A stretch of DNA of 64,000 nucleotides, taken from positions 3,286,001 through 3,350,000 of the forward strand of contig NC_016631.1 in assembly GCF_000178955.2 (NCBI RefSeq), written 5' to 3'. Every line of letters starts with the position of its first letter. Positions within the stretch are counted from its first letter, which is position 1. This document shows positions 18,365 to 45,370 of the stretch, in pieces. This DNA comes from Granulicella mallensis MP5ACTX8. Its GTDB lineage: Bacteria > Acidobacteriota > Terriglobia > Terriglobales > Acidobacteriaceae. Below the pieces are notes generated by a model. It saw only the letters and a program-made list of their open reading frames with translations, had not been told where the DNA came from and ran no database searches. Position numbers and translations under genes: made by a program.

Positions 18365-18392
18365 TGAGAATTCCCTTTTGCTAACAAACAAA

Positions 18393-20919: not shown

Positions 20920-23900
20920 TTAGAAGACGTACTTCGCAGAAAGCTGCAGGAATCGAGCATCCGGCGTGTTGGCTTGGAACGACTTAGGCCCGGTGATCTG
21001 ACCACCGTTCGAACTGTTGTCCGAAGTTGAGGGATTTCCAAGCGTCGGATGATTCAAGAGATTGAAAGCATCCACACGGAACGAAAGGTATTGTTTTCGG
21101 AACGTGGCGAAGTCCTTGAAAAGTGACATATTGACACCATAGTAGCCGGGGCCGTAAACGGTGTTCGATCTGCCACCGAGGAACGACAGTGCTGCCCCTT
21201 CGCTCGTGACGGGTGAGGCAATCGTGCAGGGAACGCCGTTGACCACGGTACCTGGCGCCGTGTTAAGCGGGCAGATCAAATTACCCGGTAGCGGGTTGGC
21301 AAATGCGCAAGGGTTATACCAATTCGCTTTGTTCCTGGTCTGGGTGGGACAAGTGATATTCGGATTGGAACTATTCGGAGATCCCCCAGGAGCAAATGGG
21401 TCACGAATCTCTATAGCTCTTGCACTACCACCGTTCGCGGTACTGATGTTAGAAGTGCCTACCGAAAACGGCGTACCGGTCTGAGCCGCAAAAGTGAGGC
21501 TCGAGGACCATCCCCCAACGATCTCATCTTCCCAGCGCGATTTATTCAGGAACGCTTTGCCTCTTCCAAAGGGCAGTTGATAGTTGCCGTTCAATGTAAA
21601 CCGGTGACGAACGTCGTAGGGCGAGTTGGCGTATTCCTCGGTGTAGGGGATGAGCGCCATATTACGGTCGCCCACCGCAGATTCAAGACCACCTGCGTCG
21701 CTGTCGTCAGTCAAGCTATGCGACAAGGTATAGGTCGCCAGGAAGCTGAGACCGTGAGACGCACGCTTTTCCAGTTTGGCCTGCATTGAGTTGTAGTTGC
21801 TGATACCGCCATAGTGGATGGTACCTGCACCTCCGAAATCGGGAAACGGCTGATACTGTTGCGTGCTGACACCCGAGGCGAAGAGGCCTCGTATCGTATT
21901 GGGGTCGAAATAAAGCGGAAGATGACGCGAAACATTGCCGACGTAACTCACCGTCGCAACCATATTGGTGGTGATCGACCGCTCGACCGACAGGTTGTAA
22001 TTCATGGTGTAAGGCGTTTTGATGAAGGGATCGATGGCATGAAAGCCTGGGGTCGACACGAAGTTCTGCAGTCCATTACCGGTCTTGGCAACCAGTCCCG
22101 TCTCCAGGGTGACGCCTTGGGCGCTAAGTGATGGGCAGCTACCAACAGAGCAAGTAGGGGTGAAGAGATTTGCTGAGTTCGACCAGGGGAAGTTTGTCCC
22201 CAGGTTTGTATTTCCCTCGCTCTGCAGGCCTCCGTAAAAAATACCGAAGCCGCTGCGAACTACCGTCTTTGCCGTCGGTTGATACGCAAAGCCTATACGA
22301 GGCGCAAAGTTGAGTTCTTGTCCTTTCGCCAAACGCTCATTGTCGTTGTACTGGAGTGCGATATTATCTTGGGCTAACAAGGCTAGGAACGGCGCACCGA
22401 GATCTACACCCCGTGACCGGCTGGGAAGCTCATAAACAGCAGATCCTGTGCCGATGCCGAGGTTGGTGGCATTGATGAAGTTTGCCTGGCTTCCGCTATT
22501 TTCCTTGTAAGGCTGATAGTGGTCATACCTGAGACCAAGGTTGAGGGTAAAGTTATGAGCCACCTTCCAGTCATCCTGGAAATAAGCGGAGTCATACCAC
22601 TGCACATCGTTGATTGCCGGGGACGTAGAGATATCGGCAGTATTCATCTGATCGACAAGGAAGTCAGCTGACGAAGCGCCTGTATTTCCTACTCCCACGG
22701 CTGCCGTATAGGTACCGGTGTAGAAATATTGCCCGGTTGGAGCTGCCGCATAACGGTCGAAGACGCGGATGGACTGGAACGATACGCCAACCTTCAGAGA
22801 ATGGTTGCCGATGGTTTTGTTGATGTTGTCCAGAATCTGATAGACGTTCTGGGCTTCGTCCTGTGTACCTACGGAGCCCCACTGCTGGATATTCCCATAG
22901 GTTCCATTGCTGAAATAACCCAACGGCAGTCCACCCAGACCAGGTCCCGGAAAAGGAACATTCCCCAAGCCCAGCGATGCGGCGAGCGTGCTGCTGTTCG
23001 AGTTCGGCTGGTGGTACTGAGAGTGGATCCAGTTATAACCGAAGCGGAACTCGTTGGTGAGCGTCGGCGCAAAGGCATGGGTCTCGCTCAGGATGAAGTT
23101 CTCAGCCAGATTCGTATCGTTTTCGCCGCCGAAACCGCTACCATCAAGGATTGGCCCGAGCGGAAGCCCGTTTGTCTTGATCTCGTGCGCATAGCTATAG
23201 CGCGCGTAGACCTGGTCTCTCTGGCTGACGTTCCAATCGAGTCTCTGGTCCCACTGGATTGTATTGTCCGTCTGGCCCAGATTTACGTTGTAGTTGTTGT
23301 AGGTCTGTCCCGCAACACCAGCATTCGGATTGGGGTACATGTTGAGGATGTTCTGTGCAACCGAGTTGATCTGGGTAGGGCAGAAAACATTGTTCAAACC
23401 ATTGCAGGATAGCTTCTGCGCACCGCCGGAGTTCGGCTGATAGAGCTGAACCGCCACGCCCTGCTTCACGAGAACGGGATTTAGAAACTCACTGAAGTTT
23501 CCCTGGCGCATCAGCGCTGTCGGCACGGTGAGAATATTCGGATTGGCGATCGAAATACGATTTGCCTCGATGTCGCCGAAGTAGAAGAAGTGGTTCTTCC
23601 AGATTGGAAGACCGAGAGTCGCTCCAAACTGGTTCTCGTGGTAAGGCGCAACTGACTGGGCATTCCAAGGCTGCGCATCGAGACTGGTATTGCGCACATA
23701 CTCCCACACATCACCGTGAATCTGGTTCGTACCGGACTTGATGCTGGCACTCAGCACCGCACCAGCCGAGTGACCGAACTCCGCGCTGAAGTTGCTCGTC
23801 TGCAAACTGAACTCAGCCAGTGCATCGGGCGGCGGGCGCACCACGTAGCTCGAGCCATTGAGGAAGTCGATCAGGTTCGTGTTGTTGTCGACACCATCCA

Positions 23901-24504
23901 GGAGAAAGTCGTTCTGCTCAGCGCTCTGCCCGTTGGCAACAAAGTCGCCTGTGCCACTGCCGCGCGTATTGCCGAACGGAGGAGCAACGCCTGCCGTCAA
24001 CTGGGCGATGTAGACCCAGTTACGCCCGTTCAACGGAGTGTTGTTAATGGTCTCTGAGCTGATGACCTGCCCGACGGCGCTGGTCTGCGTTTCAAGCAAC
24101 GGAGACTCGGTCGTAACCGTCACCTGCTGCGTCACCTCACCCGGCTTCAAGGCGAGCGTAACGTTCAGGCGCTGCTGGATGTCCAGGTGCAGGTTCTCAC
24201 GCACCGTGGTCTGGAAGCTTGGGGCTGTCGCTGACAGCTTGTAGTTGCCGATCTTCACAGGCGCGAAGACGAAGACGCCATCGTTATTGGCCGTACGTTC
24301 AAGAGAAAAGGCGGTATCCGTGGCGGTGAGAGTGACCTTTGCCCCCGGGATAATTGCGCCCTGATCGTCTTGAACGACTCCTGTAATCGCGCCCTGATCC
24401 GTCTGAGCCCATGCCGAGGGCACGACGAACGCGAGCAGGCAAACAGCGAACAATGCGCTGTAGTAGAAGAGCTTATTGCTTCTATCAACTAATTTTCTAA
24501 ACAT
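20920..24504 (-). CDS. TonB-dependent receptor 1, Oar-like with carboxypeptidase-regulatory domain
   Basis: Outer-membrane active transporter of 1194 residues. The start MFRKLVDRSNKLFYYSAL begins a signal peptide that ends near PSAWAQ. Next is a carboxypeptidase-regulatory-like domain (ITGVVQDDQGAIIPGAKVTL, about residues 40-115), then VTVTTESPLLETQTSAVGQVISSETINNTPLNGRN opening the plug. The plug holds EQNDFLLDGVDNN and GAVLSASIKSGTNQIHGDVWEY. The barrel ends in LQLSAKYVF with the terminal aromatic needed for outer-membrane assembly. The ATG at 24504 has AAGGAAGG upstream and matches the paralogue's start. No SusD gene adjoins it, as usual in Acidobacteria. It probably takes up an oligosaccharide; two LacI-type operators lie just downstream of its promoter. 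Confidence 0.9.
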   Translation of the reverse strand: MFRKLVDRSNKLFYYSALFAVCLLAFVVPSAWAQTDQGAITGVVQDDQGAIIPGAKVTLTATDTAFSLERTANNDGVFVFAPVKIGNYKLSATAPSFQTTVRENLHLDIQQRLNVTLALKPGEVTQQVTVTTESPLLETQTSAVGQVISSETINNTPLNGRNWVYIAQLTAGVAPPFGNTRGSGTGDFVANGQSAEQNDFLLDGVDNNTNLIDFLNGSSYVVRPPPDALAEFSLQTSNFSAEFGHSAGAVLSASIKSGTNQIHGDVWEYVRNTSLDAQPWNAQSVAPYHENQFGATLGLPIWKNHFFYFGDIEANRISIANPNILTVPTALMRQGNFSEFLNPVLVKQGVAVQLYQPNSGGAQKLSCNGLNNVFCPTQINSVAQNILNMYPNPNAGVAGQTYNNYNVNLGQTDNTIQWDQRLDWNVSQRDQVYARYSYAHEIKTNGLPLGPILDGSGFGGENDTNLAENFILSETHAFAPTLTNEFRFGYNWIHSQYHQPNSNSSTLAASLGLGNVPFPGPGLGGLPLGYFSNGTYGNIQQWGSVGTQDEAQNVYQILDNINKTIGNHSLKVGVSFQSIRVFDRYAAAPTGQYFYTGTYTAAVGVGNTGASSADFLVDQMNTADISTSPAINDVQWYDSAYFQDDWKVAHNFTLNLGLRYDHYQPYKENSGSQANFINATNLGIGTGSAVYELPSRSRGVDLGAPFLALLAQDNIALQYNDNERLAKGQELNFAPRIGFAYQPTAKTVVRSGFGIFYGGLQSEGNTNLGTNFPWSNSANLFTPTCSVGSCPSLSAQGVTLETGLVAKTGNGLQNFVSTPGFHAIDPFIKTPYTMNYNLSVERSITTNMVATVSYVGNVSRHLPLYFDPNTIRGLFASGVSTQQYQPFPDFGGAGTIHYGGISNYNSMQAKLEKRASHGLSFLATYTLSHSLTDDSDAGGLESAVGDRNMALIPYTEEYANSPYDVRHRFTLNGNYQLPFGRGKAFLNKSRWEDEIVGGWSSSLTFAAQTGTPFSVGTSNISTANGGSARAIEIRDPFAPGGSPNSSNPNITCPTQTRNKANWYNPCAFANPLPGNLICPLNTAPGTVVNGVPCTIASPVTSEGAALSFLGGRSNTVYGPGYYGVNMSLFKDFATFRKQYLSFRVDAFNLLNHPTLGNPSTSDNSSNGGQITGPKSFQANTPDARFLQLSAKYVF

Positions 24505-24602
24505 ATCTAGGCCTTCCTTTTGATTCAACACCCCGCAATGGGGATCTTCGCTACCGTTCCGATGCGATGTGCATTTCCGCTTTGATCATTCCCTTTGCCA
24601 CG

Positions 24603-24639
24603 ATGTATACGTATACATGAAACCCTGTATACGTATACA
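24603..24639. promoter_or_regulatory. Double LacI-type operator of TonB receptor 1
   Basis: Two perfect palindromes with a central CG lie here: ATGTATACGTATACAT at 24603-24618 and TGTATACGTATACA at 24626-24639. Their centres are 22 bp apart, about two helical turns, so two dimers would bind the same DNA face. The pair starts 14 bases downstream of the -10 box of the receptor promoter, a position suited to repression. The same word occurs at 28769-28782, and nearly so at 35753-35770 next to the LacI gene that probably encodes the repressor. Confidence 0.82.
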
Positions 24640-24653
24640 TGTGCCGCTCAAAA

Positions 24654-24683
24654 TCTATAGTGGAACGAATAGAACGTTGTCAA
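24654..24683 (-). promoter_or_regulatory. Sigma-70-type promoter of TonB receptor 1
   Basis: On the minus strand TTGACA (24678-24683) and TATAGA (24654-24659) are separated by 18 bases. The same two boxes with the same spacing precede receptor 2 (28798-28827), and the surrounding bases are also conserved between the two copies. This supports function. Confidence 0.8.
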
Positions 24684-24834
24684 CTGATTTTTTACAGATG
24701 CGATAATCGTTTCACGTGCGGCATCTTCACATAAAGAAGCTCGCAACTACGCTTAGGCTCAAATTCATATTTCAGCCATCCACTCGGCCCAACAAGCACC
24801 AGGCACAGCCTTGTCTTTTTGCGATCTTTTCACA

Positions 24835-24990
24835 CCAATATGCTGGCCCCTGGCCGTCCTATCGCTCTTCCAGGTTCTATCGTGCAGCCCGCACCTTTGC
24901 CCACCGCAGTCATGACGATTGCCTTCGTCACCGCCAGGGGCGAGCGCTTGAGATTGCCGAACTCGTTTCAGCCAGCACCAAATCAATGTC
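24835..24990 (+). pseudogene. Decayed 5' remnant of a sodium:solute symporter gene
   Basis: The sequence matches the 5' part of the intact symporter gene at 28954. Bases 24885-24935 align with 29075-29124 with only about seven substitutions plus one inserted T, which breaks the frame. The peptide LPTAVMTIAFVTA corresponds to LPTAVTAIAFVAA of the intact protein, and TTTCAGCCAGCACCAAAT matches the following CTCAGCCAGTGCGAAAT part. The rest of the gene is gone: the hairpin ending receptor 2 follows at 25001. Position and direction relative to receptor 1 match the intact symporter relative to receptor 2. So a receptor/promoter/symporter unit was duplicated and this symporter copy was lost. Confidence 0.82.
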
Positions 24991-25000
24991 CAGCAAACAG

Positions 25001-25052
25001 AACGCGCAGCATGTCCCTTGACGTTGAAGCGTCGGGGAACATGCTGCGCGTT
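25001..25052 (-). terminator. Hairpin downstream of TonB receptor 2
   Basis: Perfect 14-bp arms AACGCGCAGCATGT (25001-25014) and ACATGCTGCGCGTT (25039-25052) enclose a loop that can form a further GACG/CGTC stem. It lies about 50 bp past the receptor 2 stop on the minus strand and separates that transcript from the promoter region of receptor 1. Confidence 0.72.
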
Positions 25053-25100
25053 GTCAGCAATAGAGGCCATCAGGATTCAACGGCCTTAGAACTGATGAAT

Positions 25101-28100
25101 CTAGAAATAGAAATTCCCAGAGAGTTGTACCGTTCTGCCGCCAAAATTGAGACCAGTAATTTGGCCAAAGGTGCTGCTGCCCGGATAATTATTGGGTTCC
25201 CCGTAGCCCGGAACGTTGAATACGTTGAAGATATCTCCGCGGACCTTGAAGCCCATCCCATGATAAAGATTGAATGCCTTGAAGAGGGAGAGGTCGGTTT
25301 TGTTGAAGCCCGGGCTATAGACCAGCGTTCGTCCTGCCGGCCCATAAGCCGCTTTTCCGCCATTGTTCGAGACACTTACCTGCCCGGCTGATACAGGCTG
25401 GCCTGGATCGATCGCGACAGGAGGATTGATAAAGGCGCAAGGATTAAACCAGCTCTGCAATGTTTTTGTCTTCGTTGCGCAGGGCAGCCCAAATCCAAGC
25501 ACCGGGTCAGAAACGCCACCCGGCTTGAAGGGATCGGCGATCCTGACGGCGTTTGCTCGCCCGACCCCGCCTGTTGAGTTGTTGCTGGACTGAATGCTGA
25601 GTGGGTTACCAGATTGAACGGAGAATGCTATGTTTGCAGACCATCCACCGACAATCGTGTTGGCAATCCCTTTATGATTCATCCACTGCTTACCGGCGCC
25701 AAACGGGAGTTCATACCCTCCTGTCAGGGTAGCCCGATGGCGTACGTCCTGATAAGAACTGCCATAGTCGTAGCTAAGTCCAAGCTGGCGCGCGTTGCGA
25801 TAATCAATGCCGTTGGAGGCATCGCTCAGCGGCTGACGAGAATCATCGAGGGAATGAGAGAGCGTATAGGACGCGGCAAACTGGAGCCCCTTCGAGAATC
25901 TACGCTCCAGCTTTGTCTGCAGCGAGTTATAGTTCGCATCGGACCCATAGACAATATAACTTCCGTAATTGAGATCAGGGTAAGGACGTGCTGCCTGTGA
26001 ATCATCCCCTGGTCCGACTGGCAGCGGCTGGTTATTCGGGTCGACCGGTGTTTGTAAATGATGCGTTGTCGAACCGACATAAGCAACGGTAGCCGTCAGA
26101 TTAGAACTGAAGGAACGTTGCACGGTTAGATTGTATTGCTGAGAATAAGGCGTCTTTACATCGTCTGAGCCGTTCAAATTTGGCGAGGCCGCATTCTGGA
26201 TGATGCCTGTAGCCAGAACCTTGGACCATCCCGTTTCAAGCGTCTGACCGTTGGTCGGGCAGTTTCCATAAACGCAGCCTGTGCTATTGAAGTTGCTATT
26301 GAATGCAAAAGGTGGGTTTACGCCTAAATTGAGAGAATATCCGATACCCTCGAGCGCACCGTAGAAGATGCCGTACGCTCCACGAACGACAGTCTTATCG
26401 TTAACAGAGTAGGCAAATCCAATACGAGGAGCAAAGTTTTTGTAGTCGGGCTTCACCAGATAATGGTTATCTGTGTATTGCACGACCACACCATCTTTAG
26501 CAAAGTTTGCCAGCAGGTTGGCGGGCAGTGGATTACTGCGAGTGCTGGTCGGCAGCAGATAGGTTCCACCGGTGATATTTTGCGCCGGGTTATAGTTCAG
26601 CACAGGAACGTTCGGACGAAAATTGCCCATCTGATCGTTCCGCTCCCGCGCCGGCGTGGTGTATTCGTAACGAAGCCCGGCATTGATGGTGAGTTGCGAG
26701 GTGGCCTTCCAATCGTCCTGGAAATAGCCTGCACGCACCCAATAGATATTGTTGGTCGTTGTGATATTTGAAAGAGCCGAGCTGTTCATCTCGTTCAACA
26801 GCATGTCCGCTGCGCCGTAACCGGTTGTTCCCTGATTATTGGGATCCTGGGTGAACTTTCCACTAAAGTTTATTTGCCCAATCCCATTGTTCGGCTGAAG
26901 AGTGGCGACGCGGAGACTTTGAATGTTTACGCCAAAGTGCAGCGAATGATTGCCAACGATGCGAGTGACGTTGTCGTTGATCTGCCAAACGTTCTGGTGC
27001 TCATTGGAAGGCTCATATCCTGAGGCTCCAAAGTTGCTGATGCCATTGTTATTGTTCACATTGAAGGCAGGTATACCGCCAAGATTGGGCCCTGTAAGCA
27101 GTCCACCAAGCCCAAAGGATTCCGCAAGCCCTGTCTGGTTGTAACCAGCCTGGTAAAAGGCTGAATGATTCCAGTTGTAGCCATACCGCAGCTCATTGAT
27201 GAACTTCTCGCTAAACTCGTGGGTTTCGCTGAAAGCGAAGCTGCGGCTTTGGTTGATGACGGTCGAACCGCCAAAACCGGCCCCATCCAGAACACCGAAG
27301 GGTGAAGGCGAGAATTTAGGCTGATTTTCAAAGCTATATCGAGCGAATGCCTGGTCGTGGCTGGAGATATTCCAGTCTGTTCTTACATCGAACTGGTTGG
27401 TATTGATCGCCTGGTGCCCATTGAAGATGTAGTTGTTATACGTTTGCCCCGGAATACCAAAGTTTGGCTCAGGAAAGGCAGCTAGTAGTTTTTGGGCCAC
27501 TGGATCGACCTGTGCCGGGCAGATAACATTGATCTGCCCATTGCACGAAAGATAGTTGGTGGTCCCATTTGTTCCCGGCGCCGGACCTCCCGCGTTATAC
27601 AACTGCCGGTCATTATGGTTTGTGAGCGCCGGTTGCAGGAGTTCGCTGAAGTTTCCCTGACGCATCAAGTCGGTCGGTACCGTGTATTGTCCAGAGGAGC
27701 TCGTGGTGATTTCGCGCAGACCTTGATAGTCACCGAAGAAGAAGAGTTTATTCTTCCAGATTGGGCCGCCGAACGTAGCTCCGAACTGGTTATAGCGCAG
27801 CTCCGGAGAGACACGGCTGAAGTAGTTATTTCCGGTAATGGTGTTTAGTGCATCGTTCTGGAAATACTCCCATGCACTACCATGAAACGAGTTTGTTCCT
27901 GATTTGATACTGGCATTGATCACGGCTCCAGCAGAGTGCCCTAATTCAGCGCTATAGTCGCTCGTCTGGATCTTGAACTCCTGAAGAGCATCGGGTGGAG
28001 GATTGACGATGAAACTTGCTCCATTGAGGAAGTCCGTCAGATTCGAGTTGTTGTCCACACCGTCAAGAATGAAGTTGTTCTGTTCGGTTCGTTGACCATT

Positions 28101-28673
28101 GGCCGAGAAATCTCCACTTCCCGCATTTCGCGAACCCTGTTGCCCTTGATTGACGCCGGCGGTCAATTGCGCCAGGAACACATAGTTGCGGCTGGCCAGA
28201 GGGGTATTGTTGATCGTCTGCGAGTCGAACACGTGCCCGGAAGACCCATCTTCCGTCTGCATCAAGGGGATGCTTGAACCCGAAACATCTACAGTCTGCG
28301 TCGCAGCTCCAACTCGCAGGGTCACGTTCATGCCGAGGCGCTGGCTTACCTGCAGTTCAAAATCAGTGATGGATGTTGTTTGAAATCCGGACGCGGCAGC
28401 GGTGATCGTATAGTGACCGATCTTCAACGGCGAAAAAACGTACACACCTCGCTGATCGGTTGTCGTCTTCAACTCAAGCGCCGTCCCAAGATCTTTGATC
28501 GTCATACTGGCATTTGGAATGGCCGCTCCTTGTTGGTCAGTAACAGTGCCAGTAACCGATCCCTGGTCGACCTGGGCCCATGCTGATGGCATGGTGAACG
28601 AGAGCAGACAAATGGCTGAAAGTGCGCTGTAGAGGAGGAGCTTCTTGCTTCTATCCAGGAAATCTTTAAACAT
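25101..28673 (-). CDS. TonB-dependent receptor 2, Oar-like with carboxypeptidase-regulatory domain
   Basis: Paralogue of receptor 1, 1190 residues. Signal peptide MFKDFLDRSKKLLLYSAL to about PSAWAQ is nearly the same. The regulatory-like domain begins VTGTVTDQQGAAIPNASMTI. The plug has SQTINNTPLASRNYVFLAQLTAGVNQG, QNNFILDGVDNNSNLTDFLNG and GAVINASIKSGTNSFHGSAWEY. The barrel closes with VQLSGNFYF. AAGGAAGG lies about eight bases before the ATG. The promoter is the same as for receptor 1 but with a single operator. Divergent from it run the symporter and GH36 genes, so receptor, symporter and galactosidase form one control unit. Galacto-oligosaccharide import is the natural guess. The two paralogues differ most in the barrel, so they may take different oligosaccharides. 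Confidence 0.9.
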   Translation of the reverse strand: MFKDFLDRSKKLLLYSALSAICLLSFTMPSAWAQVDQGSVTGTVTDQQGAAIPNASMTIKDLGTALELKTTTDQRGVYVFSPLKIGHYTITAAASGFQTTSITDFELQVSQRLGMNVTLRVGAATQTVDVSGSSIPLMQTEDGSSGHVFDSQTINNTPLASRNYVFLAQLTAGVNQGQQGSRNAGSGDFSANGQRTEQNNFILDGVDNNSNLTDFLNGASFIVNPPPDALQEFKIQTSDYSAELGHSAGAVINASIKSGTNSFHGSAWEYFQNDALNTITGNNYFSRVSPELRYNQFGATFGGPIWKNKLFFFGDYQGLREITTSSSGQYTVPTDLMRQGNFSELLQPALTNHNDRQLYNAGGPAPGTNGTTNYLSCNGQINVICPAQVDPVAQKLLAAFPEPNFGIPGQTYNNYIFNGHQAINTNQFDVRTDWNISSHDQAFARYSFENQPKFSPSPFGVLDGAGFGGSTVINQSRSFAFSETHEFSEKFINELRYGYNWNHSAFYQAGYNQTGLAESFGLGGLLTGPNLGGIPAFNVNNNNGISNFGASGYEPSNEHQNVWQINDNVTRIVGNHSLHFGVNIQSLRVATLQPNNGIGQINFSGKFTQDPNNQGTTGYGAADMLLNEMNSSALSNITTTNNIYWVRAGYFQDDWKATSQLTINAGLRYEYTTPARERNDQMGNFRPNVPVLNYNPAQNITGGTYLLPTSTRSNPLPANLLANFAKDGVVVQYTDNHYLVKPDYKNFAPRIGFAYSVNDKTVVRGAYGIFYGALEGIGYSLNLGVNPPFAFNSNFNSTGCVYGNCPTNGQTLETGWSKVLATGIIQNAASPNLNGSDDVKTPYSQQYNLTVQRSFSSNLTATVAYVGSTTHHLQTPVDPNNQPLPVGPGDDSQAARPYPDLNYGSYIVYGSDANYNSLQTKLERRFSKGLQFAASYTLSHSLDDSRQPLSDASNGIDYRNARQLGLSYDYGSSYQDVRHRATLTGGYELPFGAGKQWMNHKGIANTIVGGWSANIAFSVQSGNPLSIQSSNNSTGGVGRANAVRIADPFKPGGVSDPVLGFGLPCATKTKTLQSWFNPCAFINPPVAIDPGQPVSAGQVSVSNNGGKAAYGPAGRTLVYSPGFNKTDLSLFKAFNLYHGMGFKVRGDIFNVFNVPGYGEPNNYPGSSTFGQITGLNFGGRTVQLSGNFYF

Positions 28674-28768
28674 ATGTTTAGCCTTCCTTCTGATTCGATC
28701 TGCAATCGCAACCTGCTCTGCTGCTCATAAGCAACGTACTTTGCGTAGAGGCCTTACCTACTGATTGA

Positions 28769-28782
28769 TGTATACGTATACA
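28769..28782. promoter_or_regulatory. Single LacI-type operator between receptor 2 and the symporter gene
   Basis: A perfect TGTATACGTATACA palindrome begins 15 bases downstream of the -10 box of the receptor 2 promoter. It lies in the 280-bp gap shared with the divergent symporter/GH36 unit and could control both directions, although I find no clear promoter for the plus-strand genes. Confidence 0.8.
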
Positions 28783-28797
28783 CGGAGAGTGTCAGAA

Positions 28798-28827
28798 TCT
28801 ATATTGGAATGCATAAGGAGTTGTCAA
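28798..28827 (-). promoter_or_regulatory. Sigma-70-type promoter of TonB receptor 2
   Basis: TTGACA (28822-28827) and TATAGA (28798-28803) on the minus strand are 18 bases apart. They are embedded in a stretch that matches the receptor 1 promoter (GAATCTATATTGGAAT against AAATCTATAGTGGAAC). Confidence 0.8.
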
Positions 28828-28953
28828 CTGAATTTTTCATAGATGCGACAATTACTTCCCCTCAGCCTCACTCTCCGCCGATACCTATGATTGCGCACAT
28901 ACTTAGAGGCACGCCTTAACCATCTCTTCAGCACCAGGTAAGACTTTAGACAC

Positions 28954-30552
28954 TTGCAAGCTTTCCCTCCCAATCCGCTCGACCTCACCGTCATCGGGGT
29001 CTACTTCGCCGCGACCATCCTGGTCGGGTGGCTCTTTCGTCGTAAGGCCCATTCCTCTTCCGACTTCTTTCATGCGGCCCGCACCTTGCCCACCGCCGTC
29101 ACGGCGATCGCCTTCGTCGCAGCCAATTGTGGCGCGCTCGAGATTGTCGGGATTGTCTCAGCCAGTGCGAAATATGGCGCAAAGACGCTTCATTTCTACT
29201 GGATAGGCGCCATTCCGGCGATGCTCTTTCTCTCCCTCTGCATGCTCCCGATTTACATGCGGAGCCGCGCACTCACCGTACCGGAGTTCCTGAAGCTGCG
29301 CTTCAACGGATCGACACGCACGCTGAATATCGTGTGCTGCGGCGTCATGATGATCTTGGTCTCCGGCATCAGCCTGTATGCGCTGGCACAGGTTTTGCGC
29401 ACTTTTCTTGGATGGAGTTTTACAGAGACCACATTATCCGCCGCAGCGATCGTCTTCCTGTATGTGTCCCTCGGCGGCCTGACAGCAACGATGTACAACG
29501 AGGTCATCCAGTTCGTCTTGATCGTCCTCGGGCTTCTGCCGCTCGTGTTCTTCATCCTGCATGATTTCCACGGCATGGCTGGTCTCACAGCGCAACTGGA
29601 GCCTGCCATGCGCCATACATGGGTAGGACTGCCCGTAGCAAATCCTCACGCCATCCCGATGGATGTCGTCGGCGTCTCCATGGGACTGGGGTTTGTTCTC
29701 AGCTTCGGATACTGGTGCACAGATTTCGTATTGATCCAACGCGCACTGGCCGCACGCACCACGGCCGGAGTACTCAACACTCCCCTCGTGGCGGCCTTCG
29801 TCAAGCTCCTGTTCCCTGTTTTGGTCGTTCTTCCCGGCCTGGCGGCGGCGGTTCTCTTCCGATCCGTTCCCGGGTTCCACTACGACCAGGCGTTGCCGGC
29901 TCTGATGATGCGTTACTACCGCCACGGCCTGCTCGGGTTCGGAATTACCGCCATCCTGGCAAGCCTGATGTCGGGACTGGCGGGAAATATCAACGCCCTC
30001 ACCACCATCTGGACGCACGATATCTATCGGGCCTCCCTGTCGCCGAATAAAAGTGACAGCCACTACGTTCGAGTGGGAAGAATCTCCACCCTGTTCGCGA
30101 TTCTGCTCAGCATCGCGACGGCCTATCTAGCCTTGTCCTTCAACAACATCATGGACTACCTGCAGTTGCTCTTCTCTCTGTTCAATGCCCCATTGCTGGC
30201 GACGTTTCTGCTGGGCATGTTCACGATGTGGGCTACCCCCAAGGCTGGCTTCTGGGGGCTCTTGATTGGGACACTCTCGTCGGTCGTGCACAACCTCGCC
30301 TACCGCCTGCACTGGATTACGTATGGAAGCGATATGAGCGCCAACTTCTACGGAGCCATTCTTGCCTTCTCCAGTTGTCTTGTCGTCACGGCCCTGCTGA
30401 GTGCGTTTACTCCGGCAAAGTCACGCGAGGAACTCGCCGACCTTACCTGTTGGACAGGCACACATCATGGCATTCAAATCCCCAGAGCGGCCGTGGTGCT
30501 TGCCGGTGTTGCACTCGTCATCTGCATCTTTTTGAGCATTCTTTTTCGATAG
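28954..30552 (+). CDS. Sodium:solute symporter (SSS family), probable sugar importer
   Basis: Inner-membrane permease of 532 residues with about thirteen to fourteen hydrophobic segments. The N-terminal LDLTVIGVYFAATILVGWLFRRKAHSSSDFFHAAR is the SSS family opening. ALEIVGIVSASAKYGAKTLHFYWIGAIPAM forms the first core helices, and LMSGLAGNINALTTIWTHDIYR is the conserved Na+-site region of galactose-type symporters. The start is a TTG with only a distant AGGT, so the exact first residue is uncertain. The GH36 gene follows after 93 bp on the same strand. The pair is divergent from receptor 2 across the operator. Sodium-coupled uptake of galactose or a released oligosaccharide is inferred from context. 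Confidence 0.87.
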   Translation: MQAFPPNPLDLTVIGVYFAATILVGWLFRRKAHSSSDFFHAARTLPTAVTAIAFVAANCGALEIVGIVSASAKYGAKTLHFYWIGAIPAMLFLSLCMLPIYMRSRALTVPEFLKLRFNGSTRTLNIVCCGVMMILVSGISLYALAQVLRTFLGWSFTETTLSAAAIVFLYVSLGGLTATMYNEVIQFVLIVLGLLPLVFFILHDFHGMAGLTAQLEPAMRHTWVGLPVANPHAIPMDVVGVSMGLGFVLSFGYWCTDFVLIQRALAARTTAGVLNTPLVAAFVKLLFPVLVVLPGLAAAVLFRSVPGFHYDQALPALMMRYYRHGLLGFGITAILASLMSGLAGNINALTTIWTHDIYRASLSPNKSDSHYVRVGRISTLFAILLSIATAYLALSFNNIMDYLQLLFSLFNAPLLATFLLGMFTMWATPKAGFWGLLIGTLSSVVHNLAYRLHWITYGSDMSANFYGAILAFSSCLVVTALLSAFTPAKSREELADLTCWTGTHHGIQIPRAAVVLAGVALVICIFLSILFR

Positions 30553-30645
30553 GGTGAAGCCGCAATGCGGTGCTTGAGTTTGCGGCGGCAAGAGAAATAA
30601 CCAGTTTGTAAGTGGAACGAAGTGATGCTTGGAGCAGGAAGAACT

Positions 30646-32922
30646 ATGAAAAATATTTTGAATACCCTTTTGTCCTCTGATAAAAGCAGCGCCAACGGAT
30701 TTCATCTTGTGTACAGGATGTTGCTGGCGACAGCGATCTTCATCGCTCCCCTGTGCCTCCGGGCTCAGGCGCAGACATCGTCTATCCACTTCGACAAGCA
30801 GACGAAGGTCTTCCGCATCGATGCAGCCGACGTGTCTTATATCTTCGGCGTCAATGAGAACAAGCAGGTTCAAACTCTTTACTGGGGCAAGCGTCTCAGC
30901 GCTGCAGACACCTTTGCTGCCTCTAAGTCCGCCCCAGGAGCTTCGTCCTCCGATCCATCCATAGACACGACACGGCAAGAGTTTGTCGCATGGGGTGGAG
31001 GACTGTACGTCGAGCCGGATCTGAAGGTCACCTTTCCCGATGGAAACCGAGATTTAGTTCTGCAATACGTCTCGCATACCATTGCCGGTAACCATCTGAC
31101 CCTGCAGCTCAAGGACGTATCGCGCGACGTCTACGTCGAACTGCAGTATGAGATTGACTCGGAGACCGGCATCCTGCGCCGTTCGGCAGAGGTGCAGAAT
31201 AAGACCTCCCTGCCGTTGACGATCGAGCAGATAGCCTCCGGCACGTGGACACTACCTCGCGCTCAGGATTATCGACTGCACTACCTTACAGGGCGCTGGG
31301 CCGGAGAGTGGAACCTTCGTGAGCAGGCAATCCAACCGGGCAAAATTACTTTGGAGAGCCGGCGCGGATCGACTGGAGCGCAAAATAATCCCTGGTTCGC
31401 AATCGACCGCAACAGCTCGAACGATCAGGATCAGGGCGATGTCTGGTTTGGCGCCCTCGGTTGGAGCGGGTCCTGGCAGATCAATATAGAACAGGATCAG
31501 ATTCAACAGGTACGCGTAACCGGCGGCCCTAATAGCTTTGACTTCGGCTATCGCCTGGCCGCGGGCGAAAGCCTGCAATCGCCCTACTTCTATGCAGGCT
31601 ACTCGCATGACGGCATTGGTGGAGCTTCTCGCCTGCTGCACCGATTTGAACTCTCCAGCATCCTGCCAGGCGCATCTCACCCCAAGTTGAGGCCTGTGCT
31701 TTATAACTCATGGGAAGCTACCGGTTTTAATGTCGACGAAGCGGGCCAGGAAGCCCTTGCAGAGAAGGCCGCCAGCATCGGGGTAGAGCGCTTTGTCGTA
31801 GACGATGGCTGGTTTGGACAGCGCGCGGACGATCATGCCGGGCTGGGCGACTGGTATGTGAATCCCGTAAAGTTTCCGCATGGCTTGAAGCCTCTGATCG
31901 ACAAGGTGCATTCGCTGGGGATGGACTTTGGCCTATGGATTGAGCCGGAGATGGTGAATCCCGATTCAGACCTCTACCGCAAGCATCCCGACTGGATATT
32001 GAACTTCACCGGAAGACCGCGCAGCGAGGGACGGCACCAGTTCGTACTGAATCTTGCCAGACCCGATGTCCGTGAGTATGTCTTCAACTTCATCGACAAG
32101 TTACTCGATGAGAATGACATTGCCTTTCTCAAGTGGGATTACAACCGTAACTGGTCGGAGCCAGGCTGGCCTGCGGTCTCACCCGACGAGCAAAAGAAGG
32201 TGTACGTCACCTACACGCAGAACCTCTATTCCATCCTGGAGGAGTTGCGCAGGAAACACCCGAAGATAGAGATCGAAAGCTGCTCCGGTGGAGGCAGCCG
32301 TGTCGATCTCGGCATCATGCGCTACACCGATGAGGTATGGCCCTCCGATAACACCGATGCCTTCGACCGCCTGAAGATACAGGACGGATTTACCTATGCC
32401 TACACGCCCGGCGTGATGATGGCCTGGGTAACTGACACGCCAACTCAGATCAATCATCGGACGGTTTCTCTGGACTATCGCTTCCTTTCCTCCATGCAGG
32501 GATCGCTGGGCATTGGAGCAAACCTCAACGACTGGAAACCGGAAGACTTTGCCACGGCAAAGAAGATGGTGGCACAGTACAAGCAGATTCGCGAGATCGT
32601 GCAGCGCGGCTCTCTGTACCGCCTGATTTCGCCACGAGATGGCAGCGAACAGTCGGTCACAGAAACGGTCTCACAAGACCAGACACGGGCTGTAGCCTTC
32701 GCCTTCCTGCATTCGAGCGAAATGCTCTACCCTTTTCCGCGAATCTATCTTCGTGGTCTAAAACCGGATGCCCTCTACCGGATTGAAGCACTGGATGGGA
32801 AGCTGGCCGGCGATTCACCGACGGTTGCCAGTGGAGCCTTCTGGATGCAGCAGGGCGTTGATGTAGACCTCAAAGGGGACTTCCAGGCCGCTGCGTTCTC
32901 CCTGAAGATCGTCTCCCAATAA
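30646..32922 (+). CDS. Glycoside hydrolase family 36 alpha-galactosidase
   Basis: Retaining alpha-galactosidase of 758 residues with a signal peptide (basic start, hydrophobic stretch to about APLCLRAQAQ), so it is probably periplasmic or exported. The beta-sandwich N-terminal domain ends near residue 330. The barrel shows PVLYNSWEATGFNVDE, VDDGWFGQR and DFGLWIEPEMVNPDSDLY. The nucleophile sits in FLKWDYNRNWSEPG (Asp about 498), and the acid/base region reads CSGGGSRVDLGIMRYTDEVWPSDNTDA. All these are strong GH36 group I features. The ATG at 30646 is chosen over one eight codons upstream because AGGAAG lies directly before it. It probably removes alpha-1,6-galactose from oligosaccharides that enter through receptor 2. 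Confidence 0.94.
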   Translation: MKNILNTLLSSDKSSANGFHLVYRMLLATAIFIAPLCLRAQAQTSSIHFDKQTKVFRIDAADVSYIFGVNENKQVQTLYWGKRLSAADTFAASKSAPGASSSDPSIDTTRQEFVAWGGGLYVEPDLKVTFPDGNRDLVLQYVSHTIAGNHLTLQLKDVSRDVYVELQYEIDSETGILRRSAEVQNKTSLPLTIEQIASGTWTLPRAQDYRLHYLTGRWAGEWNLREQAIQPGKITLESRRGSTGAQNNPWFAIDRNSSNDQDQGDVWFGALGWSGSWQINIEQDQIQQVRVTGGPNSFDFGYRLAAGESLQSPYFYAGYSHDGIGGASRLLHRFELSSILPGASHPKLRPVLYNSWEATGFNVDEAGQEALAEKAASIGVERFVVDDGWFGQRADDHAGLGDWYVNPVKFPHGLKPLIDKVHSLGMDFGLWIEPEMVNPDSDLYRKHPDWILNFTGRPRSEGRHQFVLNLARPDVREYVFNFIDKLLDENDIAFLKWDYNRNWSEPGWPAVSPDEQKKVYVTYTQNLYSILEELRRKHPKIEIESCSGGGSRVDLGIMRYTDEVWPSDNTDAFDRLKIQDGFTYAYTPGVMMAWVTDTPTQINHRTVSLDYRFLSSMQGSLGIGANLNDWKPEDFATAKKMVAQYKQIREIVQRGSLYRLISPRDGSEQSVTETVSQDQTRAVAFAFLHSSEMLYPFPRIYLRGLKPDALYRIEALDGKLAGDSPTVASGAFWMQQGVDVDLKGDFQAAAFSLKIVSQ

Positions 32923-32972
32923 ATTGAGCCTCCGCTGCATCGTGAAATGCCGCGGAGGCTCAGGCGTTATCA

Positions 32973-35513
32973 CTACCGTGTCGTCATAGCGTCTGTAGCG
33001 TTGCCTACAACGGCTCCGTTATTGGACGAGAAGACAAGGCTGGTGGCAAAGCGAGCACTCTCCGAGCATCTCGCAAAGTCGATTGGAACCACGATCGCTT
33101 TATGAGCTCCCGGAGCGATATCTCCTACCTCAAGCGGAAGACGCGCCAACACCTTGGGATGGCAGGTACCTTTGCCACTGGATTGTGTCAGTGAGAGAAG
33201 GTTCACCTCCGCCTGTCCAGCCTTGATCTTGCTCGTGTTGGTAAGCGAGAGCTGCCAGAGACGAAGTACCGGAAGGCCCAGCTTGGCTGTAACCGCTCCC
33301 GAGAGCGTCGCTGTTCCTACGGTTGGAGAGATAGCGATCCTATCGAGGTCCGGCGCAAAGTTCGTCGGATTACCAAACTGGATCGTGTTGACACCCGCCT
33401 GCAATGTAATCGGAACTACAGTACTGGTGGGCAGGCTGAAGCTGCTTCCATCAAGATCAAGCTCCGTACCCGTTCCTCCATTGACACTGATGAAGTAAGA
33501 GCGAGGACCGCTGGTCAGGTAATCGATCTCCATCTGATAGGTACCGGCCGTCGGAACGCTCACATTCGTGAACGTTACATTGGCGCCAGCGCCACCCAGA
33601 TTCCCTGCCTTCGAACCGGCGGAGCAGTTACCGCAGTAAGAGACACTGGCAGTGCCGCCGATCGTAGCAACCTCCGCCTCATACCCAGTCCAGTTCGGAG
33701 CGGGAGCCGATCCATCTCCACTGATCACGATACGGTCGAGATCGGGAGGATAGCTGGTCGGATTGCCAAATTGAATGCTGTTCATGCCCGCATTCAACTG
33801 GACGGGAACGGTGGTGCTGGCAGGGATGTTGAAGCTTCCGCCACTTACATTCAGAGTTGCAGGCAGACCGCCATTGACCTGATAGATCAGTGCTCGTGCA
33901 CCGACCGTCATCGAGTCGATCTCCATCTCATAGGTGCCAGCCCGTTCGACGCTGATGTTATTGATCGTCAGCGTATTGTTGGGACCTATTCCAAGGTTGC
34001 CGACCTTCAAACCACCCGAGCAGTTCGAGCAGGAAGCTACAGAAGCCGATCCGCTTACAACGCCGGCCTCTGCCTCATACACCTGAGAGTGAGGAACCAT
34101 TGCACGACCGGTTGGAGATACCTTGAGCAGGCGTACGCCGTGGCCAAGCACAACGGCACTGAAGCCGCTATTCACCGGGCCCAGATCAATGTGGCTCCAC
34201 AGGTCGCGGACAGCAGAGGCTCCCGTAAAGCCCAGCGTGCCCCAGGGAAGCGTCATCGAAGTGGGAAAGGCATTCAGATTGAAGAGAGCAACATAGTAGC
34301 TGCCATCGGCCTGCTTCGATGCCCAGATGGGATTGAAGCCACCCGCAACCTCCTGCGCAGGATATCCCGACTGGTCGACAGCAATCACTTCGTCGTTGCT
34401 CAGAAGCTGTACGCCCGCGCTGTCCAGGGCAGTCAAATCACCGCCGATAAACATAGGCGCGTTGCCCATAGCCCATAGTGAGATCGCAGACTGCTGCTCC
34501 GTGGAGCTCAAACCATCCGTGTTGGAATTACCCACCTCAAGAGAGTCGAGATCGTTCCAGCCAACAGTAGGACCGGAAGCCTTCTCCCAGCCGACGAGAT
34601 CATAGAAGCGCTGCGTCACCATGTTCCAGTTCGTAAGGGTAGAGCAGTTCCCTTCGCACTCGACATCGCCTTCAATGCGGCGAGCATTCGCATAGGTCTG
34701 CCAGGTACTCAGGTAATCCTGATCGAGTGCCCATGAGATGGTGAACCACATAGGATGGCTGTTCTGTTTAATCGCCGTAGCCCATGCCGCAACATCGTCC
34801 CGGTTATCGATAGCGGTGTTGTCGTTATAGGATCCTGGTGTGACTGCATCAAGCTTGATAAAGTCGATCCCCCACGAAGCAAACAGGTTGACGACAGAGG
34901 TGATGTACTCCTGAGCACCGGGCTTGGTGAAGTCGATCTTGTAGTGAAAGGGAGAAGTCCCCGATCCACCAAAGGCGTTCCCAGCGGTATAAGGAACCGT
35001 GAGAATATCCTGGATGTGATACGGCGTGCCCAGGATAGGGTAGTTGGCCTGTACCGCAGGCTGTTCTACGCCGGGAATCCAGTAGATGCCGGCCTTTTGT
35101 CCATTTTGATGGATGTGCGTCACAAGGGCCGTGATGTCTGGAAAGTTCGGGGCAGCGGGAATAGGTCTGCCATTCGCATCGAAGGTGGACATCCATCCGG
35201 AGTCCATATTGATGTAGTTATAGCCATGGGCCTGCAGGCCCGAAGCCAGCAACGCATCCGACTGGGCTTGAATATTTGCTTGCGTAAGAAAGTTGCTGGT
35301 GATCGTCTGCTGGCTGAAGCTACTCCAACCGAGATACGGTTTTTCCGCGACACCGGCTGACTGAGCGAGTGCGGATACAGCAGAGGTGAAAAGCGAAGTC
35401 ACGACGAGAGCGGCAGTATAGAAGGTACGGCGACGACGATGGTTGCGTACTGGAGGCGCAGTCTGCCTATCAGGGCCGACTAAGGGACGAGGCTGGGGCA
35501 ATATCAGAGTCAC
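32973..35513 (-). CDS. Secreted GH27 alpha-galactosidase with two tandem carbohydrate-binding modules
   Basis: The GTG at 35513 is chosen because AGAGGA lies about seven bases upstream and the frame before it does not look coding. The 846-residue protein has an Arg-rich start (HRRRRTF), a hydrophobic signal ending near ALAQ, and a GH27 barrel: LGWSSFSQQTI, YINMDSGWM and DFIKLDAVTPGS with the nucleophile Asp about 222. WNDLDSLEVGN is the typical GH27 acid/base context. After the C-terminal beta domain come two repeats of about 130 residues (starting VYEAEAGVVSG and GYEAEVATIGG; each with GTY[EQ]MEID and IQFGNPT..PPDLDRI or close), like CBM6/CBM35 modules. A final Cys-containing domain follows (TCHP, ARCSES). 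The modules suggest binding to insoluble galactan-type or galactomannan-type polymer outside the cell. Confidence 0.9.
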   Translation of the reverse strand: MTLILPQPRPLVGPDRQTAPPVRNHRRRRTFYTAALVVTSLFTSAVSALAQSAGVAEKPYLGWSSFSQQTITSNFLTQANIQAQSDALLASGLQAHGYNYINMDSGWMSTFDANGRPIPAAPNFPDITALVTHIHQNGQKAGIYWIPGVEQPAVQANYPILGTPYHIQDILTVPYTAGNAFGGSGTSPFHYKIDFTKPGAQEYITSVVNLFASWGIDFIKLDAVTPGSYNDNTAIDNRDDVAAWATAIKQNSHPMWFTISWALDQDYLSTWQTYANARRIEGDVECEGNCSTLTNWNMVTQRFYDLVGWEKASGPTVGWNDLDSLEVGNSNTDGLSSTEQQSAISLWAMGNAPMFIGGDLTALDSAGVQLLSNDEVIAVDQSGYPAQEVAGGFNPIWASKQADGSYYVALFNLNAFPTSMTLPWGTLGFTGASAVRDLWSHIDLGPVNSGFSAVVLGHGVRLLKVSPTGRAMVPHSQVYEAEAGVVSGSASVASCSNCSGGLKVGNLGIGPNNTLTINNISVERAGTYEMEIDSMTVGARALIYQVNGGLPATLNVSGGSFNIPASTTVPVQLNAGMNSIQFGNPTSYPPDLDRIVISGDGSAPAPNWTGYEAEVATIGGTASVSYCGNCSAGSKAGNLGGAGANVTFTNVSVPTAGTYQMEIDYLTSGPRSYFISVNGGTGTELDLDGSSFSLPTSTVVPITLQAGVNTIQFGNPTNFAPDLDRIAISPTVGTATLSGAVTAKLGLPVLRLWQLSLTNTSKIKAGQAEVNLLSLTQSSGKGTCHPKVLARLPLEVGDIAPGAHKAIVVPIDFARCSESARFATSLVFSSNNGAVVGNATDAMTTR

Positions 35514-35752
35514 TGTATTTCCTCTCTTGCTATCGAACCAGCTAGCAAGTAGCCGATTGAATTTCACTGGCTTACTCAGTGCGGGGGCAGACCGAAGAAA
35601 GTCGCACGAGTTACCGCTCGCAGCTGCGCGCACCCTGCTGCAGGACATCCATGAAGGCACACCTCACCTGAAACGCGGCCACGGTTCATCCGAGCCTCGC
35701 GAATTCCCGTGCCCGTTTGAATCCATCTCTTCAGGTCAAGAACTAGCGGTAC

Positions 35753-35770
35753 TATGTATACGTGTACATA
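35753..35770. promoter_or_regulatory. LacI-type operator between the GH27 and lacI-family genes
   Basis: TATGTATACGTGTACATA is an 18-bp palindrome with one mismatch pair and the same core as the operators at 24.6 and 28.8 kb. It lies in the 391-bp divergent gap between the GH27 gene (minus) and the repressor gene (plus), so it may serve GH27 control and repressor autoregulation at once. No convincing -35/-10 pair was found around it. The rest of the gap (35514-35904) shows no gene. Confidence 0.75.
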
Positions 35771-35904
35771 AGGAAATTTGGCAAGTCTGGAACAAATTTA
35801 TTAACCGGACGTCTATTGAATGGACACCCACATTTTTATTCCCTTGCTTGTTCTTCCTCTAACCCCACACACTGCTTATCACGACGAAGGAGTTGAACCG
35901 CACG

Positions 35905-36915
35905 ATGGACATGCGCGAGATTGCCAAATTGGCCGGAGTATCGAGTGCCACCGTATCGCGTGTCATTAACGGGTCAAGCCTTGTGCGGCCCGAGACCGTC
36001 GAACGCGTTCGCAAGGTCATCGACGAAGTAAAGTTCTTTCCCAACAACAGCGCTACAACGCTGAAGTACGGCAGAAGCGGTACGTATGGCTTGATCATCC
36101 CGGACATCACCAATCCGTTCTTTCCCGAGTTCATCAAGAGCTTCGAAGGAATCGTCGTTGAAAACGATCAGGAGATGCTGATGGCAACCACCGACTTTCA
36201 CTCCGGCCGCATGCAGCAATCGATTCGACGCATGTTGATCCGCAAGGTGGATGGCGTAGCCCTGCTGGCCTCGGAGATCGAAACCGAACCCTTCGAAGAC
36301 CTCATCCAGAATCGAGTTCCCTTAGTCACCATGGATCGAGGACATATCGGCAATGGGCTAAGCGATGTCGCCATCAACAACAAGAGCGGCATGGATCAAG
36401 CCTTGCGCCATCTGAAAGATCTGCGCCATAAAAAGATCGGTTATATCGGCGGCTTTGCCGGTCTCACTATCTCGGACCACCGTGTCGAGGCCTTTATGCG
36501 CGCGCTGAAGCGGGTCGACATCGTGCCACGGCCGGAGTTCATCAAGGTCGGCAACTACCGCATCACCGGCGGCATGACGGCCATGACCGAGTTACTGTCA
36601 CTCAAAGATCGGCCGACCGCAGTATTAGCCGCAAATGACCTGACAGCTATCGGCGGTATGCGCGCGGCGATGAAGATGGGATTCTCCATCCCAGGTGACC
36701 TGTCGATCATTGGGTTCGACGATATCGACATGAGCGATATCGTGCATCCGCCGCTCACGACCCTGCGGCTTTCAAGGCATGAATTGGCAAAGGTCTTCTT
36801 TGACGCCCTCGAACACCTCAAGTCCAAACCCCACGCCCAGGGAGAGCAACTCAGCGTAAAGACAAGCCTGATCGTACGTGAGTCCACAGGGCCTGCGCCG
36901 AAGCGTTCAGTGTAA
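35905..36915 (+). CDS. LacI-family transcriptional regulator of the galactoside locus
   Basis: A 336-residue repressor. The DNA-binding head MREIAKLAGVSSATVSRVINGSSLVRPETVERVRKVIDEV has the LacI helix-turn-helix followed by the hinge FFPNNSATTLKYGRSGTYGLIIPDITNPFF. The remainder is a periplasmic-binding-protein-like sugar domain (ETEPFEDL, VTMDRGHIG, GFDDIDMSDIVHPPLTTLRLSRHELA). The ATG at 35905 is chosen; a TTG four codons earlier abuts the AAGGAG binding site. The operator palindromes at 24.6, 28.8 and 35.76 kb have the central-CG form this family binds, and no other regulator lies in this part of the locus, so this is their likely owner. The inducer is unknown; galactose or a galactosyl oligosaccharide is plausible. 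Confidence 0.93.
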   Translation: MDMREIAKLAGVSSATVSRVINGSSLVRPETVERVRKVIDEVKFFPNNSATTLKYGRSGTYGLIIPDITNPFFPEFIKSFEGIVVENDQEMLMATTDFHSGRMQQSIRRMLIRKVDGVALLASEIETEPFEDLIQNRVPLVTMDRGHIGNGLSDVAINNKSGMDQALRHLKDLRHKKIGYIGGFAGLTISDHRVEAFMRALKRVDIVPRPEFIKVGNYRITGGMTAMTELLSLKDRPTAVLAANDLTAIGGMRAAMKMGFSIPGDLSIIGFDDIDMSDIVHPPLTTLRLSRHELAKVFFDALEHLKSKPHAQGEQLSVKTSLIVRESTGPAPKRSV

Positions 36916-37307: not shown

Positions 37308-37352
37308 TCCATATACTGCGATTCAACGAATAGAAGCTTGAAAGTGACCGCT

Positions 37353-38120
37353 ATGCCTGGCCAGTTACAAGGAAAATGCATTCTGATCACCGGCGGCGCA
37401 CAAGGGATCGGACTCGAATGCGCCCGCGCCTATGTCCGCGAGGGTGCCCGCGTCGCTATCGCCGACGTCGATCGGAAGCAAACTGAAAAAGCAGTCGAGG
37501 AACTCGGAGCCTCCACCCTCGCAGTCGATTGCGACGTAGCAGACGGAGCCTCTGTCACCAGGGCCGTCGCGCAGATCACTGCAGCGTTCGGAGCCATCGA
37601 CGCTGTCCATAACAACGCCGGTGTCAGCATGCCGTCGAAGCCTCTCCACCTGACAGAAGAAGACGAGTGGGACCGCCTGCTCCGCGTGAACCTGAAGTCT
37701 GTCTTCTGGACGACGAAGCTCTGCCACCCTTATCTAAAAGCCTCGCACGGCTCGATCCTGAACACCGCGAGCATGGTGGGCGTCATAGGGCAGTCGAACC
37801 ATGCGGCCTATGTGGCGACAAAGGGCGGGATGATCTCGCTGACCAAGGCCATGGCCCTGGACTACGCCGCCGACGGCATAAGAGTCAACGCGGTCTGTCC
37901 CGCCGGGGTCTGGACTCCGATGCTGCGGCAGTGGGCTACAGAGCAGGAAAATCCCGCGGAGATCGAGTCCTACCTGGATCGCATCCACCCGCTTGGTTAT
38001 TGCCCTGGAGGCGACGTCATCGCGGACGCCTCCGTCTTTTTACTATCACCCGCGGCGCGCTTCATCACCGGTTGCATCCTGCCCGTGAGCGGCGGCGCTG
38101 AACTTGGATACAAGCTATGA
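37353..38120 (+). CDS. SDR-family oxidoreductase, probable L-fucose dehydrogenase
   Basis: Short-chain dehydrogenase of 255 residues. The cofactor motif is ILITGGAQGIGLE and an acidic Asp in VAIADVDRK suggests NAD preference. NNAGVSMP and the catalytic AAYVATKGGM (Tyr-x-x-x-Lys) follow. The C-terminus has VNAVCPAGVWTPMLRQW, which resembles the L-fucose dehydrogenase branch. It is first in an operon with L-fuconate dehydratase (4-bp overlap) and a RhaT-type permease, so it probably oxidises L-fucose to fuconolactone; 2-keto-3-deoxy-L-fuconate dehydrogenase is the main alternative. The ATG at 37353 is used rather than the TTG five codons earlier. No lactonase gene is present in the cluster. Confidence 0.83.
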   Translation: MPGQLQGKCILITGGAQGIGLECARAYVREGARVAIADVDRKQTEKAVEELGASTLAVDCDVADGASVTRAVAQITAAFGAIDAVHNNAGVSMPSKPLHLTEEDEWDRLLRVNLKSVFWTTKLCHPYLKASHGSILNTASMVGVIGQSNHAAYVATKGGMISLTKAMALDYAADGIRVNAVCPAGVWTPMLRQWATEQENPAEIESYLDRIHPLGYCPGGDVIADASVFLLSPAARFITGCILPVSGGAELGYKL

Positions 38121-40332: not shown

Positions 40333-40393
40333 GGTACTCCTGCAAGCATCAAAGTCGCTCTAGAATGTGGATAGCACACGCGAGATCAAATCA

Positions 40394-45337: not shown

Positions 45338-45370
45338 CCGTTTCCCTCTCATCTATCCCCGGCGCAGCCG

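Follow-up and report, generated by a model that had tools for sequence, protein, structure and literature searches.

Predicted LacI operators at a locus for TonB-dependent receptors and alpha-galactosidases in Granulicella mallensis

In the CUT locus sux of Xanthomonas, the LacI-family protein SuxR represses the genes of a receptor, a transporter and an enzyme as well as its own gene (PMC1790865). The locus of Granulicella mallensis described here is built of the same parts, a TonB-dependent receptor, an inner-membrane sugar transporter, a sugar-active (degradative) enzyme and a LacI repressor being found together, and by analogy it may work like the Xanthomonas locus, with predicted import and induction. 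There are also clear differences: the present locus, which belongs to a member of the Acidobacteriota and is described here from its sequence, encodes alpha-galactosidases as enzymes, two large receptors of the OMP_b-brl_4 family and, for the inner membrane, an SSS symporter where sux has an MFS transporter. The other close parallel is provided by the galactoside regulons of LacI-family proteins (GalR, GanR, MsmR, LacI and others; PMC4052901), which likewise have a local regulator, an even palindrome with a central CG, an autoregulatory site and sugar-related targets, whereas the present locus has an operator sequence of its own and its putative targets include outer-membrane receptors. Such regulons are common, and the main text of that study makes no mention of Acidobacteria or TonB (PMC4052901). 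In the literature that we searched, mostly without subscription journals, we found neither a description of the motif TGTATACGTATACA nor a LacI regulon in Acidobacteria. What we describe is thus an ordinary kind of sugar-gene switch, well supported, from a phylum in which the mapping of such switches has scarcely begun.

The genes of the locus, in coordinates of the window (the whole 64-kb stretch of DNA analysed), are as follows.

15968-20555, minus strand: a likely alpha-galactosidase-like enzyme of 720 aa and a GH95 glycosidase, downstream of receptor 1
20920-24531, minus strand: TonB-dependent receptor 1, with carboxypeptidase-regulatory-like, plug and OMP_b-brl_4 domains (Pfam)
25101-28673, minus strand: TonB-dependent receptor 2 (Pfam)
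28954-30552, plus strand: sodium:solute symporter of the SSS family, an inner-membrane transporter (Pfam, NCBIfam)
30622-32922, plus strand: GH36 alpha-galactosidase (melibiase) with KWDYNR and DNTDAFDRLKIQ motifs (Pfam, translation)
32973-35660, minus strand: GH27-type alpha-galactosidase, carrying two CBM35 domains and probably a signal peptide at its N-terminus (Pfam, translation)
35905-36915, plus strand: LacI-family regulator of 336 aa from the ATG at 35905, with helix SSATVSRV and hinge ATTL

Inspection of the translations by eye suggests that the catalytic-region motifs of the GH36 and GH27 enzymes are intact. The pair formed by the 720-aa enzyme and GH95 may possibly belong to the receptor-1 transcription unit; in a relative, G002, it is preceded by an operator of its own. 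The candidate operators are four in number.

24604-24617, no strand: operator 1b, TGTATACGTATACA, the second site downstream of the receptor-1 promoter, kept in G. mallensis X5P3
24626-24639, no strand: operator 1a, TGTATACGTATACA, beginning 14 nt after the receptor-1 -10
28769-28782, no strand: operator 2, TGTATACGTATACA, 15 nt after the receptor-2 -10
35755-35768, no strand: operator 3, TGTATACGTGTACA, with one mismatch, between the GH27 gene and lacI

A sequence-only reading of this DNA had placed perfect palindromes at 24603-24618, 24626-24639 and 28769-28782 and a one-mismatch version at 35753-35770, had seen no other such palindrome in the window, and had noted the central CG and the adjoining lacI-family gene. 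Rescanning the window returned all four at these coordinates, the first being a 16-bp perfect palindrome, ATGTATACGTATACAT, around the core 24604-24617 and the last having its core at 35755-35768; a scan tolerating up to three mismatches to TGTATACGTATACA found no site in the window beyond these four, and the neighbouring protein (35905-36915) does have LacI domains. The motif is an even palindrome with a central CG and a G at NT-6. Could the sites be due to chance, or to a dispersed repeat devoid of any regulatory role? Loose matches are not rare enough by themselves to decide, since with the same tolerance 100 shuffles of the window gave 0.54 matches on average and four were reached in two of them. 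The exact 14-mer is another matter: calculated from the base composition of the window, its expected number is about 1e-5 in 64 kb and lies between 0.001 (first-order) and 0.005 (second-order) for the genome. It occurs three times in the 6,237,577 bp of the genome (one contig), all three within 4.2 kb at the locus. This genome-wide scan, proposed in the sequence-only reading, thus revealed a distribution that is not random, while the reversed pattern used as control gave no match in the whole genome at up to one mismatch. Given the lack of any exact copy elsewhere in the genome and the conservation of the sites in promoters across genera (see below), chance or a dispersed repeat is effectively refuted.

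Three looser matches elsewhere in the genome were considered and set aside. Besides operator 3 there is just one other one-mismatch match, at 6114352, before a xylulokinase operon; it is not conserved, because alignments with G. mallensis X5P3 and G009 are interrupted around it and a one-mismatch site is missing from the corresponding place in both genomes, and it is probably fortuitous. Two further sites, at 627583 and 3648293, have two mismatches and fall within coding sequence; they were not counted as operators, and the second is at the start of the galactokinase gene of a Leloir operon.

The position of the sites relative to promoters is informative about how they may act. Three promoters were recognised.

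24654-24683, minus strand: receptor-1 promoter, -35 TTGACA at 24678-24683, N18, -10 TATAGA at 24654-24659
28798-28827, minus strand: receptor-2 promoter, -35 TTGACA at 28822-28827, N18, -10 TATAGA at 28798-28803
35755-35784, minus strand: likely GH27 promoter, -35 TTGCCA at 35779-35784, N18, -10 TATACA inside operator 3

At the receptor promoters the distance from the -10 box to the first operator is 14 nt (receptor 1) or 15 nt (receptor 2), exactly as had been read by eye beforehand, which would place the operator at about +8 to +21. A similar arrangement is seen in the relatives whose LacI is at least 80% identical (receptors of G003, G009, G350, G371, G002, G284 and the Edaphobacter MAG L061): TTGACA-N18 followed by a -10-like hexamer and, 13-19 nt further on, the operator. 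In the more distant orthologs G061, G153 and most of G092 such a receptor promoter is not clear. A seven-genome alignment of the receptor/symporter interval shows the operator and the receptor promoter as conserved islands in otherwise divergent intergenic DNA. The GH27-facing TTGCCA-N18-TATACA promoter, with its -10 inside the operator, is kept in the GH27/lacI interval of four genomes, although in G009 two extra genes without Pfam matches separate it from GH27. Operator 2 lies between divergent genes, receptor 2 on one side and the symporter-GH36 pair on the other, and no clear symporter-facing promoter was found near it, the only strongly conserved elements being the operator and the opposite-strand receptor promoter. 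Because no promoter was recognised for the symporter-GH36 pair, we infer its control by LacI from the conserved position of the operator alone.

These observations suggest the following scheme. Without inducer, a LacI dimer would occupy each of the four sites. The conserved promoter-operator spacing makes it likely that repression at the receptor promoters proceeds by a block of initiation or of promoter escape, by LacI bound at about +8 to +21, and the position of this block would be comparable to that exerted at lacO1 of E. coli. At the GH27/lacI site, the bound protein would cover both the GH27 -10, which the site overlaps, and the region upstream of lacI, and so would combine repression with autoregulation. 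A sugar derived from alpha-galactosides, probably galactose or a small alpha-galactoside to judge from the enzyme content, would then bind LacI, and the receptors, the symporter and the alpha-galactosidases would be made together. The LacI of 336 aa does not extend as far at the C-terminus as that of E. coli, and it is therefore expected to act as a dimer at each site and not as a looping tetramer.

Operators 1a and 1b are 22 bp apart, i.e. about two helical turns, a spacing at which two dimers would lie on the same side of the helix. The same tandem pair would fold, in the receptor-1 leader, into a hairpin of about 18 bp, and one could imagine that the palindromes act in RNA, on mRNA stability or translation. 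We regard this as very improbable: of the genomes read, none but the two G. mallensis strains has the pair, the lone site of the receptor-2 leader could form a stem of 6 bp only, and neither the site over the GH27 -10 nor the sites of other genomes call for an RNA role.

The presumed repressor has the N-terminal helix-turn-helix (PF00356) and the C-terminal periplasmic-binding-like effector domain (PF13377), both above cut-off. No NCBIfam cut-off for the named LacI groups (GalR, RbsR, CytR, CcpA and others) was reached, the best score being 207.6 bits against the 531 required for RbsR. Among solved structures the best sequence matches are CcpA, RbsR and PurR, which share with it the domain layout and the TVS frame of the recognition helix, and CcpA also has Ala at the second specificity position; CcpA and PurR are global regulators and RbsR is a ribose regulator, and the protein falls far below the cut-offs for all three. 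Operators of the LacI family are mostly even palindromes with a central CG (PMC4052901). According to Camas and colleagues, an Arg at AA-20 pairs with G at NT-6, a hinge Leu pairs with the central CG, and AA-15/16 are tied to NT-5/4 of the operator (PMC2978694). The SSATVSRV helix and SATTL hinge of the present protein provide Arg at AA-20, Ser-Ala at AA-15/16 and a hinge Leu with Ala three before it, and the operator has G at NT-6, T-A at NT-5/4 and the central CG, so that the predicted contacts (Arg with G, Leu with CG) fit.

Comparison across genomes links the 14-mer to this protein. In the genus, the exact 14-mer is present in 4 of 28 genomes, exactly those whose LacI is at least 82% identical, and all their exact sites lie in the LacI neighbourhood (the LacI of G. 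mallensis X5P3 is 99% identical). In the family it is found in 8 of 398 genomes (1 for the reversed-pattern control), namely in six of the seven with a LacI at least 80% identical vs 2 of the 391 others (Fisher p 3.7e-11, a test that treats related genomes as independent; the genomes share ancestry and such co-occurrence statistics overstate independence). The seventh ortholog genome, G284, carries TGTATACCTATACA twice, in the receptor/symporter interval and before lacI. As for the two exceptions, G183 (59% complete) has the 14-mer at a GH36 start, and G092 has it upstream of a receptor gene. The exact copies of G002 are found in front of another receptor and of the pair encoding the 720-aa enzyme and GH95; membership of the putative regulon has therefore been reshuffled there while the operator was retained. 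Where the ortholog is 54-66% identical, receptors, GH28-type genes or lacI are preceded by TGTATACGTATTCA, TGTATTCGTATACA, TGTATCCGTATACA or TGTATACGATTACA. Of 15 loci whose LacI has the SSATVSRV helix, 12 have a site of no more than two mismatches within 1.5 kb of lacI, the other 3 having no close site within that distance, vs none of 23 more distant LacI loci (the genomes are related and these counts are not independent).

Is it nevertheless another regulator that binds the sites? LacI-family genes number at least a dozen in the genome, two further regulators of sugar type are encoded within 10 kb (a second LacI at 45587 and a GntR-FCD protein at 40367), and the sites of G092 are unlinked to its LacI homolog; being far from this 54% identical protein, they could be bound by another LacI. 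Yet across genomes the 14-mer follows the protein encoded at 35905-36915 and its neighbourhood, the stretches read for G350, G371 and G284 showed no GntR homolog next to the sites, the LacI paralogs read differ in their recognition residues, and at several more distant LacI loci a AAACGTTT-type palindrome is found instead. We therefore consider a different regulator, be it one of the two neighbours or a paralog elsewhere in the genome, unlikely. The proposal of a LacI regulon, already made in the sequence-only reading, gains support from the 398 genomes, in which the 14-mer tracks close LacI orthologs and the promoters of receptor, alpha-galactosidase and lacI genes. From the sites, their rarity, the gene identities, the conserved promoter-operator layout and the co-occurrence, we infer binding and repression by LacI, together with the nature of the inducer: the four palindromes are very probably the operators of the 35905-36915 protein, with sugar-relieved repression of the receptors, the symporter and the alpha-galactosidases.

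The site beside lacI deserves a separate comment. The one-base asymmetry of TGTATACGTGTACA is identical in six genomes (G000, i.e. the present one, G003, G009, G350, L061 and G002) and is therefore not random decay, suggesting a preserved autoregulatory operator; that it is a weaker one is a reasonable reading. Autoregulation is found for 72% of the LacI regulators studied (PMC4052901).

Looking further afield, we would tentatively propose, at a little under even confidence, that a wider acidobacterial clade of SSATVS-type LacI proteins governs many receptor-plus-glycosidase loci through near-identical operators, the operator shifting with the recognition residue; placement 13-19 nt after a stereotyped receptor promoter applies to the closest group. 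The G023 ortholog, with Asn at AA-20, has in the corresponding receptor/GH27 interval the site TATATACGTATAAA, altered at both NT-6 positions, which is suggestive only of a recognition shift, the evidence amounting to one clear site plus half-sites. The full palindrome TTATACGTATAA predicted for an Asn-type LacI is absent from G023 and G002, and the idea therefore stays weak.

Acidobacteriota are abundant in soil and have very many TonB-dependent receptors, the substrates and control of which are mostly obscure. The interest of the present locus comes chiefly from the fact that receptor control has been little studied in this phylum: a conserved operator that would tie one repressor to two receptors, a symporter and alpha-galactosidases predicts a substrate class for those receptors, the motif could be used for assigning others, and the switch is easily tested. 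The genome encodes at least 65 receptors of the OMP_b-brl_4 family, and the exact operator is found at just two, receptors 1 and 2.

Several observations were made in passing. In G009 (L167:2904-5813) a one-mismatch operator lies between a receptor gene and that of a DUF5695 protein (PF18951), possibly a new carbohydrate-active family under similar control. Another type of palindrome, CGTAAACGTTTAC, is found about 170 bp before more distant lacI genes of the genus (L032, L035-L037, around position 1330), and probably serves a second LacI group as operator. In the window, the second LacI-family gene (45587-46627, plus strand) is divergent from a GH88/105-type gene (44162-45352, minus strand), with which it probably forms a separate sugar switch. 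Downstream of lacI, at 37338-41065, are genes for an SDR dehydrogenase, an enolase-superfamily sugar-acid dehydratase, a RhaT-like transporter and a GntR regulator; the dehydratase gene adjoins lacI in G002 and G371 too, hinting at a linked sugar-acid pathway. Finally, the 720-aa enzyme (18393-20555, minus strand), probably secreted, has no Pfam or NCBIfam match and shows weak similarity to GH36 and GH27 enzymes of the PDB; 70-79% identical across four relatives and linked to the GH95 gene, it possibly represents an undescribed branch of the alpha-galactosidase clan.
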